DNA of 26,240 bases, taken from the IMG/VR virus record IMGVR_UViG_3300030389_001639, positions 1 through 26,240 of that record. One strand, given 5' to 3'. The position numbers and the translations under genes were made by a program. A model generated the notes under the pieces. That model did no database searches and was not told the DNA's origin. It was given only the letters and a program-made list of their open reading frames with translations. Position 1 is the first letter of the stretch. Each line of letters opens with the position of its first letter. This document shows positions 18,769 to 23,157 of the stretch, one piece after another. This DNA comes from a virus.

Positions 18769-20166
18769 ATGGCAATATCCAGTACTACTACAAAAAATAG
18801 TGCTAGTGCAAATGGAACCCAACATTCTTTTCCATATAGTTTTAAAATATTTGCTGATGGTGATTTAACTGTAATTGTTCGATCAGCAAATGGTACAGAA
18901 ACAGTTAAATCTTTAAATACAGATTACATAGTTACAAATGCTGGTAATGCAAATGGTGGTAATGTTTTATTTAAATTTAATACTGGTAATTCAAATGATG
19001 CTCACTTTTCGTCATCTGACAAAAGACCGCAAAGTGGAGAAACAGTTTTAATTAGAAGAAATTTAACACTTACCCAGGGAACTGATTATGTAGAAAATGA
19101 TCCATTCCCAGCTGAAAGTCATGAAAACGCTCTTGATAGAATTACTATGATTGCTCAACAGCTACAAGAAGCTATTGATCGATCACTAAAAATATCAAGA
19201 ACAAATACAATGACTAGCACAGAATTTACTGTTGGTGCTACTGATCGTGCTAATAAAATACTGTCTTTTGATAGTACTGGTGAACTTACCATTACTACTG
19301 CGATTGGAACGTCACGAGGTAACTGGGCAGCTAGTACAGCTTATGCTGAAAGAGATATTGTAAAAGACACAAGCACTAATAATATATTTATTGTTAATAC
19401 TGCTCATACATCAAGCGGATCACAACCGCTTACAACAAATGCTAATAGTGCAAAATACACTTTATTAGTTGATGCGGCTACTGCAACAACAGCTTCAGCG
19501 GATGCCCAAAAATTAGCAATAAATGCTGAAGATTCCCAGTTCACTCTTTCAGGTGGTACTCAAGGTTTTTCAGCTTTACACTATGCAGCTAAAGCAGCCG
19601 CTAGTGCAACGTCAGCTGCTACTGCAACAGTAAACGTACAGCTTGCAGAAGATTTTGCAACAAAGACAACTGGTGAAGTTGTAGCTGGTACTGGTAAGTT
19701 TAGTTCTGAAGCACACGCTTTGGGTGGTACTGGAGTTACCAATCAGGTTGGTGCGTCAAAAGAATGGGCAATAAATCCTGGTGCTGTTGATAGTTCAGGT
19801 GAGTTTAGTTCAAAAGCCTATGCAGTAAGTGGATCAACAATCAATGCTGGGTCTGCAAAAAACTGGGCATTAGGTGGTGGTAATAGTTTTGCTACAAATA
19901 CAACAATAGGAAATACTGGATTATATTCTGCAAAATATTATGCAGAACAAGCAGCTGCATCCCAGGATGCTTTTGATGATGTTTATTTAGGATCTAAATC
20001 CTCAGATCCCTCTGTTGATAATGACGGAAATGCTCTTCAAACTGGAGCTTTGTATTATTCGAGTAGTGAGGGAAAATTAAAATTTTATAACGGATCCGCA
20101 TGGGTTGCTGTCGAGGGCGGCGGTGCTTCAGCTGGGTTCTCTATAGCAATGTCTGTTGCATTATAG
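18769..20166 (+). CDS. tail fibre protein with T7 gp17-like N-terminal domain
   Basis: The 465-aa protein starts with the tail-attachment domain known from T7-like fibres: NGTQHSFPYSFKIF, LNTDYIVT, GETVLIRRNLTLTQGTDYVEND and ESHENALDRITMIAQQLQEAIDRSLKIS (residues about 20-145). After a linker (NWAASTAYAERDIV, about 184) come Ala-rich helical repeats (YAAKAAASATSAATATV, about 271) and related units SKEWAIN, AKNWALG and SAKYYAEQAAAS. The end carries ALYYSSSEGKLKFYNGSAWVAV. It should be a trimer attached to the tail and serve as anchor for smaller fibres. AGAGGA lies 8 bases before the ATG. Confidence 0.85.
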   Translation: MAISSTTTKNSASANGTQHSFPYSFKIFADGDLTVIVRSANGTETVKSLNTDYIVTNAGNANGGNVLFKFNTGNSNDAHFSSSDKRPQSGETVLIRRNLTLTQGTDYVENDPFPAESHENALDRITMIAQQLQEAIDRSLKISRTNTMTSTEFTVGATDRANKILSFDSTGELTITTAIGTSRGNWAASTAYAERDIVKDTSTNNIFIVNTAHTSSGSQPLTTNANSAKYTLLVDAATATTASADAQKLAINAEDSQFTLSGGTQGFSALHYAAKAAASATSAATATVNVQLAEDFATKTTGEVVAGTGKFSSEAHALGGTGVTNQVGASKEWAINPGAVDSSGEFSSKAYAVSGSTINAGSAKNWALGGGNSFATNTTIGNTGLYSAKYYAEQAAASQDAFDDVYLGSKSSDPSVDNDGNALQTGALYYSSSEGKLKFYNGSAWVAVEGGGASAGFSIAMSVAL

Positions 20167-20175
20167 GAGTAAAAA

Positions 20176-20826
20176 ATGGCACAAGATTTTGAAAGAAACT
20201 TTATAACCAATATTGGCACAATTGCCCAGGACATACCTAATGGATCTGACTTTGGCAGCGACAATACAATCATTGGTATTCATATGGCAAACAAAACAGA
20301 CAATGCCATAACAGCTTCTTGTTTTATGACATCAAGTGCATTTACTGGTAATACTGGTGATCCTTTTGCAATTACAGTTACAGTAGTATCAAGTCAATAT
20401 TTACTTGATGGTGTAGTCAGACCTCATATTACATTGTTAAAAGGTTTTACATACGTTTTTAGTTATCCGTCAGCACATCCATTTTCATTGTCAACAACTT
20501 CTGATGGTACTCATAATAGTGGTTCTGAATACACAACTGGTGTTACAAGAGATACAAATGCAAATACTTTAACTGTAGTTGTGTCCTCTTCTACTCCGTC
20601 TACCTTATATTATTATTGTGGCAATCATGCAAATCATGGAGGTCAGATCACAGTTACGGATGTTCATTATTTAATTAAAGATGCACCAATACCAGCTAAT
20701 AGTGCATTACAAGTTTTAGATGGTGGTGCAAAACTTGTTGTTCAAAGTGGTGATAGAATGTTTTTTCAATCGAGTACAGTAACAAGCCTAGATGTTTGGG
20801 TTTCAAGAGTGGATGCAATAAGCTAA
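20176..20826 (+). CDS. fibre-associated protein with cupredoxin-like insert
   Basis: The 216-aa protein has N-terminal and C-terminal parts (NFITNIGTIAQDIPNG and IPANSALQVLDGGAKLVVQSGDRMFF) resembling small virion stabilising modules. Between them, about residues 75-160, lies a plastocyanin-like segment: GFTYVFSYPSAHPFSLSTTS and YYYCGNHANHGGQITV. The copper-ligand layout is His101 (HPF), Cys148, His151, and His154 where type 1 sites usually have Met (CxxHxxM). Similar segments ending YYYCxNHxxMGG are known to me from marine phage structural proteins. An AGGAG site overlaps the previous stop. Whether copper is bound is unknown; the fold may be only a beta-sandwich adhesin. Confidence 0.7.
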   Translation: MAQDFERNFITNIGTIAQDIPNGSDFGSDNTIIGIHMANKTDNAITASCFMTSSAFTGNTGDPFAITVTVVSSQYLLDGVVRPHITLLKGFTYVFSYPSAHPFSLSTTSDGTHNSGSEYTTGVTRDTNANTLTVVVSSSTPSTLYYYCGNHANHGGQITVTDVHYLIKDAPIPANSALQVLDGGAKLVVQSGDRMFFQSSTVTSLDVWVSRVDAIS

Positions 20827-21752
20827 TGGCATATATAGGAAATCCAGTAGACACAGCATTTACAAGTTTAGAAAAGCAAGACTTTTCTAATCCTAGTGGT
20901 ACAAGTCTTACACTTGCTCATGCAGTAGCTAATGCTAATGACATTGCATTGTATATTAACAATGTTAGACAAGAACCTACAGAAGCCTACTCTGTCAATG
21001 GCACAACAGTTACGCTTACTGGTAGTGTATCTAACTCAGATGATATCTATGTTATTTATTTAGCAAGAGCAGTACAAACAACTGTTCCACCAGATAGTAG
21101 TGTAAGTACTACAAAGATAGCTGATGATGCTATAACAACTGCTAAGATAGCTGATAATGCAGTTACTTCTGCACAGATAGCAAGCGGTGCAGTAGATATA
21201 CCAGGATATAAATTCATTGCAAAACAATCAATAGACATTGGGGGAACTGCTGCTTTTTCTTTGCTTTTTAATAATACAGTAGTTACTTCTGCGTTTAATA
21301 ATTATAGACTTGTTTTTAACAATATACGCCCAACAAATAATGGCAGTCAATTATACCTCAGATGTAGTATAGACAATGGTAATTCAGGATTGTCAAATGC
21401 TCAAGGTCAAAAAACTTACTTCAGACTGGATGATGGTGCAACTGGTAGTGAGGATGATGACAACATGAATACACATGAAATTGCTACGAATGTAGGTAGC
21501 GATCAATATGATGGTGTTACTGGAATAGTAGACATTTTTGGTACTGGTAATAATGCAATAAATTTACAAAGAACGATGGTTATACAATCAAGGGCAACTG
21601 GTCGTGAAGATAGTAACTGGTATAAGTGGGATGGTGCAGCTTATGTTACCGCTGGAACAAGATCCTCAATGGTAAATTGCATATTTTTATTGTTTAATGC
21701 TGGTAACATTGCAGATGGTAGTGTTTGTTTATATGGAATGAATGAGGGTTAA
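20826..21752 (+). CDS. short tail fibre / adhesin with KIADxAI repeat
   Basis: The 308-aa protein has an N-terminal beta module (TSLTLAHAVANANDIALYIN, then EAYSVNGTTVTLTGSVSNSD and IYVIYLARA, residues about 25-90). A repeat region follows, TTKIADDAITTAKIADNAV plus TSAQIASGAV (about 96-125), a pattern that forms trimeric fibre shafts. The C-terminal part (about 130-308) is a beta-rich receptor-binding-type domain. ATG 20826 shares one base with the previous stop; no separate ribosome site is seen, so re-initiation is likely. The N-terminal module recurs in the gene at 22693. The receptor cannot be inferred. Confidence 0.72.
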   Translation: MAYIGNPVDTAFTSLEKQDFSNPSGTSLTLAHAVANANDIALYINNVRQEPTEAYSVNGTTVTLTGSVSNSDDIYVIYLARAVQTTVPPDSSVSTTKIADDAITTAKIADNAVTSAQIASGAVDIPGYKFIAKQSIDIGGTAAFSLLFNNTVVTSAFNNYRLVFNNIRPTNNGSQLYLRCSIDNGNSGLSNAQGQKTYFRLDDGATGSEDDDNMNTHEIATNVGSDQYDGVTGIVDIFGTGNNAINLQRTMVIQSRATGREDSNWYKWDGAAYVTAGTRSSMVNCIFLLFNAGNIADGSVCLYGMNEG

Positions 21753-22692: not shown

Positions 22693-23157
22693 ATGCCCTA
22701 TGTTGGACGAGAAAATGTAACTGGCGAGTTCATAAAATTAGATGCTATACCACAAGCAGCTAGTAATACATTTAACTTACAAAGAAGTGGTGCAGCTTTC
22801 GCACCTGGAACAACTGAACAATGTATTGTATCCGTCAATGGTGTGACACAAGCGCCAGGAGATGCTTATAATATATCGGGATCACAGATTGTTTTTACAG
22901 CAACATTATCAGCAAATGATGTTATTGATTACATACTTGTTATGGGTAGTGCTTTATCTAGTGGTGTACCATCAACTGGATCAGTACAAGGCACACATCT
23001 ATCGACTACATTGTTTCGTGATCCTCTAAGAATAAATGATGCAACTATATCAGATAACATAACAATAGGTACATCTGAAAGAGCAATGGTTGCTGGGGAT
23101 ATCACTATTGATAGTGGTAAAACCTTAACAGTAAATGGAGTGTTAACAATTGTCTAA
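22693..23157 (+). CDS. short fibre protein with beta module and beta-helix-like end
   Basis: The 154-aa protein starts MPYVGRENVTGEFIKLDAIP. It carries an N-terminal beta module (CIVSVNGVTQAPGDAYNISG, then IVFTATLSANDVIDYILVMG, residues about 41-82) like that of the gene at 20826, and ends with repeating strands ITIGTSERAMVAGDITIDSG and KTLTVNGVLTIV, which look like the start of a beta-helix. No large receptor domain follows, so it may be an adaptor or shaft stub. AAAGGA lies 9 bases upstream. Its end overlaps the next gene, which starts with TTG, by 8 bases. Confidence 0.68.
   Translation: MPYVGRENVTGEFIKLDAIPQAASNTFNLQRSGAAFAPGTTEQCIVSVNGVTQAPGDAYNISGSQIVFTATLSANDVIDYILVMGSALSSGVPSTGSVQGTHLSTTLFRDPLRINDATISDNITIGTSERAMVAGDITIDSGKTLTVNGVLTIV

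Follow-up and report, generated by a model that had tools for sequence, protein, structure and literature searches.

The window, that is, the whole stretch of DNA analysed here, is the 26,240-base virus record IMGVR_UViG_3300030389_001639. The TerL that it encodes shares 57% identity, across 98% of the protein, with those of the pelagiphages HTVC010P and Greip, and a tail-fibre region lies behind late genes for a head-tail connector, a major capsid protein, and tail tubular and nozzle-type proteins. Judged by genes only, the related terminase and late gene set place the window among the HTVC010P-type pelagiphages, and they identify the phage as a pelagiphage-type podovirus that is kin to SAR11 phages. 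In the tail-fibre region, a tail fibre or tail protein gene at 18769-20166 (phrog_1640 tail protein, 2.6e-35) is directly followed by the gene under study at 20176-20826, and the first in-frame start (20796) of the next, tail-fibre-like open reading frame (20796-21752; phrog_18673 tail fiber protein, 1.8e-10) overlaps the latter gene; all three lie on the plus strand. The 20176-20826 open reading frame translates into a predicted virion structural protein of 216 aa with a single match in its own record, and in HTVC203P the same place is taken by gp43, a "putative virion structural protein". The protein encoded at 20796-21752 and a further one at 22693-23157 both resemble phrog_18673 (tail fiber) in its N-terminal part, which suggests that one cluster of the window holds several fibre-like adaptors.

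Comparison with HTVC203P gp43, which is 108 aa long, divides the protein into three parts. Residues ~1-55 (20176-20340) align to gp43 residues 1-53, and residues 164-216 (20665-20823) form a C-terminal part that is 75% identical to gp43 over residues 165-216, while residues ~62-163 (20359-20664) are missing from gp43. The domain-free form of this scaffold is common. A search with the gp43 form as query confirmed 585 loci, and among the 80 of these that were listed, 80/80 match without the insert. It also occurs far beyond pelagiphages, in cyanophages and in phages of Rhizobium, Delftia and Yersinia, and homologues carry the annotation virion structural protein (annotation only) in HTVC010P, HTVC019P and others. 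Because both ends match gp43 without the middle and because the domain-free form is common, we interpret residues ~62-163 as an insertion into one hairpin of a scaffold of ~110 aa. The homologous ends and the position after the tail fibre gene make the protein a member of the pelagiphage small virion structural protein family; it had been described as a "fibre-cassette protein", which holds for its location in the tail-fibre gene region and not for its backbone, which is no fibre. All large inserts at this hairpin among scaffold relatives are cupredoxin-like, with axial Met or His, and a few other relatives have only short acidic loops at the site, such as DYNDDNDDDPS in L315 and L319.

Structure prediction yielded a confident middle domain in the whole-protein model, and a domain-only AlphaFold2 model, with 114 relatives in the input, reached a pLDDT of 95.5 and a pTM of 0.87. 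The predicted model is a Greek-key beta-sandwich, as in the cupredoxin fold. A Foldseek search of the PDB with this model returned mostly plastocyanin, amicyanin, Cu nitrite reductase, pseudoazurin and rusticyanin at a probability of 0.99-1.00, with moderate TM-scores to solved cupredoxins (~0.5); the best single match by E-value was SO1698, which is a beta protein but no cupredoxin. We then aligned profiles by hhalign to amicyanin and two plastocyanin sequences (the amicyanin and spinach plastocyanin sequences were confirmed against the PDB), and His101, Cys148, His151 and His154 fell on amicyanin H53, C92, H95 and M98, respectively, with P = 1.8e-4 and a probability of only 48%. The profile of a second alignment of relatives, A2, placed the first His on H39 of plastocyanin 3bqv and its YYC..H on the ligand loop, and retrieved plastocyanins among solved proteins at weak E-values of ~0.14-0.2. 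With the window protein and the 49-sequence alignment A1 as queries, the search for a solved relative by sequence gave only weak antibody and other unrelated matches. Nor did the window protein match any cupredoxin model in Pfam and NCBIfam, the PF00127 gathering cut-off included. PF00127 (Copper-bind) is the Pfam family matched by most relatives (21/114, sub-threshold, best E 0.0012), and NCBIfam plastocyanin and amicyanin models also match relatives with weak E-values. A possible relative from eukaryotes is the plant At5g54830-like domain PF25489, which ten relatives in A2 match (best E 5.4e-6). Taken together, the model, the Foldseek matches and the amicyanin ligand alignment bear out the proposal, made beforehand from the sequence, that the domain is cupredoxin-like.

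The predicted metal ligands lie in two motifs, HPF at His101 and YYYC-GNHANHGG with Cys148, His151 and His154. Their codons are CAT at 20476-20478 for His101, the predicted first ligand, TGT at 20617-20619 for Cys148, the predicted thiolate, CAT at 20626-20628 for His151, the predicted second His ligand, and CAT at 20635-20637 for His154, which occupies the axial slot that holds Met in relatives; all are on the plus strand. Translation thus confirms the residues that had been assigned a blue-copper spacing, and the C-x2-H-x2-X spacing of the window is that of amicyanin (C92-x2-H95-x2-M98). His101, Cys148 and His151 are invariant in A1. Since some A1 members were perhaps found with a ligand-containing peptide, we drew a census of 114 domains fetched by a motif without any of the ligands; A2 was set aside as evidence of ligand conservation, its members having been chosen with the ligand pattern, which makes the argument circular.

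In the census, 108 of the 114 domains have His-Cys-His-Met, so that the three equatorial ligands occupy homologous places in these relatives as well as in the hhalign mapping. In five of the others, both His residues and the Cys of the core are gone at once; four of these are of one kind and the fifth stands apart. One more keeps Cys-His-Met with its first half replaced, so that Cys148 and His151 are each found in 109/114 and His101 in 108/114. Such a nearly all-or-none pattern would be expected of residues that share a metal site. The preliminary description had named free variation of Cys148 and His101 in homologues as an outcome that would count against the site; instead, a lost core mostly goes as a block. 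Our findings point to a retained metal site rather than to relaxed decay, and a chance motif is ruled out by the fold, the alignment and the census. Copies with no core at all (L382, L387, L393, L405 and L419, e.g. LPLRFS...YYYAEGT) appear from sequence to be natural metal-free versions, and L217, L165 and L176 keep the Cys-His-Met half with an unrelated or replaced first half.

None of the 114 census domains has an axial His. Axial residues were also counted by scanning the viral collection with loop patterns of the YYC-x2-H-x2-X-GG type. The YYC-x2-H-x2-H-GG pattern gave 18 stretches, 11 of which are this domain, and the Met pattern gave at least 120 matches. The Leu/Phe pattern gave 10 stretches, nine of which are genuine copies (8 with Leu, 1 with Phe); six have Asp at position 101. 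An axial Tyr occurs in L081, and the only pattern match with an axial Gln lies in an unrelated protein. The Leu-axial copies are L444-L449, L452 and L453, and in 6/8 of them Asp replaces the first His (SGDPFRFS or SGDPLRFS). Pattern counts and census together show Met to be dominant and His, Leu, Phe and Tyr to be rare in the axial slot. The Met form that the preliminary description gave for marine phages is hence by far the commonest, and the alignment of homologues at residue 154 supports the view of His as a rare residue where Met is usual. Known cupredoxins vary in their axial residue, with Gln, Leu and Phe occurring naturally beside Met, so the axial His of the window bars the assignment as a classical blue copper site and not the assignment of the fold.

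Axial-His copies were found on 11 fetched contigs in addition to the window. Ten have the window scaffold and belong to one pelagiphage clade, and one, L095, has the domain in another protein. A sequencing error at His154 was rejected because the same residue recurs in contigs from many samples. All members of the His clade have His154, whereas positions 152 and 153 differ among them; comparison of the window with L003, L004 and L007 gives a dS of ~0.5-0.9 and a dN/dS of ~0.13-0.16 for the domain, with His154 kept. The change from Met (ATG) to His (CAT) takes three base changes. By these sequence comparisons, the axial His is a genuine feature that is rare and has been maintained. In L095 (3033-4373), the axial-His domain is fused to the C-terminus of a T4-like tail sheath stabiliser (phrog_227, 2e-77); a homologue encoded on the minus strand of L181, which shares 56% identity with it along nearly the whole protein, has an axial Met. 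Two origins of the axial His are likely on this comparison. A proven double origin was dropped as a claim, given that the domain tree alone lends it no support and does not reject a single origin (p-AU 0.44).

The domain behaves as an exchangeable cassette. Within the gene, the DNA flanking the insert on either side is 80-97% identical between the window and L011, whereas the insert itself is only 45-70% identical, and the L011 insert has a Met-type ligand loop in place of the His-type loop of the window. His-type and Met-type cassettes of this scaffold form separate supported clades in the domain tree. It is the combination of near-identical flanks, a divergent insert and separate clades from which we deduce exchange.

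A redox or metal-binding part on a virion surface had been called unusual biology, but the domain is no singular case: many marine pelagiphages, cyanophages and methylophages carry it in their tail fibres and virion proteins, and it is present in many viral contigs. Most domain matches in prokaryotic assemblies look like phage genes. Cellular relatives exist nevertheless, as a SAR86 bacterial lipoprotein (L375:2842-3366) carries the domain with His-Cys-His-Met near fatty-acid metabolism genes. On L350-L354, L360 and L371, the domain forms the end of small phage-like proteins whose N-terminal part is conserved and, in some of them, contains CDRCG and is zinc-ribbon-like. A literature search, with most subscription journals outside its reach, found no report linking cupredoxins with phage virions or tail fibres.

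Sequence comparison and structure prediction support the fold, its insertion, the exchange of cassettes, the His101-Cys148-His151 core and the axial His, and on this basis we consider it probable that the window encodes an exchangeable cupredoxin-fold domain in a pelagiphage-type virion protein, in which four residues bind one metal and make the domain a metal-locked surface module. His101, Cys148, His151 and His154 would jointly hold one ion, the likeliest metal being copper taken up as Cu(I)/Cu(II). An axial nitrogen ligand would be expected to make the site more tetragonal (type 1.5 or green-like) and to raise its affinity for Cu(II) or Zn(II) above that of a Met site. More speculatively, the metal might serve mainly to lock the displayed loop, so that the tail gains a rigid module for surface binding, and tail contacts might change when cassettes are swapped. 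Such a role would need no electron transfer. A change of copper type through the axial His is plausible by analogy with engineered axial-His cupredoxins. We put forward more tentatively, as a possibility, that ocean phages use the natural axial-His cupredoxin as a copper (or copper/zinc) site carried on the virion, and that exchange of His and Met cassettes within one virion protein tunes metal chemistry or target contact at the tail.

Three other explanations of the same residues were weighed. Three His and one Cys are a suitable tetrahedral ligand set for Zn(II). On this general chemistry, and with no recognisable redox partner gene within the window, the site could be a structural one for zinc or another divalent metal, the axial His having been selected for the switch; zinc is a serious rival for such a ligand set, but we think this explanation unlikely, since other relatives keep Met or the hydrophobic Leu and Phe axially, which are cupredoxin-like choices and poor ones for zinc. 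The domain could instead be a metal-free adhesin or spacer, in which His154 begins the loss of copper and the Cys-His-His core is kept for packing only. The existence of the core-less copies and of the six Leu-axial copies with Asp at position 101 shows that the fold is viable without the full site, and in bilirubin oxidase a Met-to-His substitution led to loss of copper (PMC4323517). However, the clear ligand-free copies lose the core as a block, not residue by residue. The His clade, moreover, keeps three ligands invariant and adds as the fourth a strong ligand that stays constant while its neighbours vary, and that needs three base changes from Met. Loss of copper binding by the window protein, which the preliminary description had offered as one outcome of the axial His, is thereby disfavoured, and we judge the metal-free explanation to be quite improbable.

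The remaining explanation assigns the virion a redox-active copper or a metal lure, directed at a host metal receptor or at surface electron transfer by analogy with the Ferrojan, or Trojan Horse, iron idea. It draws on the domain being very common in marine phage tail proteins and on the T4 long tail fibre (gp37), in which iron is bound by HxH motifs, together with the role proposed for such iron in marine phages (PMC11705849). Yet the analysis identified neither a receptor nor a redox partner, and the domain is also found on proteins unlikely to touch a receptor, e.g. the tail sheath stabiliser, so that we regard this explanation as very unlikely. The metal-locked surface module thus remains our preferred reading. 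If the site does bind metal, the particles of abundant ocean phages are equipped with cupredoxin-type metal centres, and many marine phages may carry metal sites in this way. Phages would then gain a measurable stake in marine trace-metal chemistry along with a new type of tail module, and the axial-His form would be the natural counterpart of a site known only from mutagenesis in the cited literature. Near-identical proteins that differ in having a His or a Met cassette provide a ready natural comparison.

Among known systems, the HTVC203P gp43 and HTVC010P virion structural protein family has the same backbone ends and post-tail-fibre region as the window protein but lacks the inserted domain. 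The Met-type domains of the HTVC028P tail fibre and an S-TIM5 virion protein are ~40-60% identical to that of the window and have the same His-Cys-His core, but differ in their axial Met and in their carrier proteins. With the amicyanin/plastocyanin cupredoxins (PF00127, type 1 copper), the window domain has in common the predicted beta-sandwich, the His...Cys-x2-His-x2-X loop and the aligned ligand residues. It differs from them in having no Pfam match and an axial His for Met, and in sitting, with a predicted site, inside a virion protein, whereas they are free electron carriers with copper. The T4 gp37 and marine-fibre HxH iron sites resemble the window domain in that a phage tail protein holds the metal, as we propose here, but they are octahedral, His-only iron sites in trimeric fibres of an unrelated fold. 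The ligand set of the window (two His, Cys and axial His) is that of engineered axial-His azurin M121H, M. thermophila laccase (Leu-to-His) and lacTT M460H, which are products of mutagenesis with outcomes that range from type-1.5 or green sites to copper loss (PMC4059628, PMC4323517, PMC6487685). Azurin M121H is reported as a type-1.5 site in a title that PMC4059628 cites; the axial Leu-to-His laccase of M. thermophila is green, with its potential lowered by 30 mV (PMC4323517), and lacTT M460H has a potential of 371 mV compared with 357 mV for the wild type (PMC6487685).
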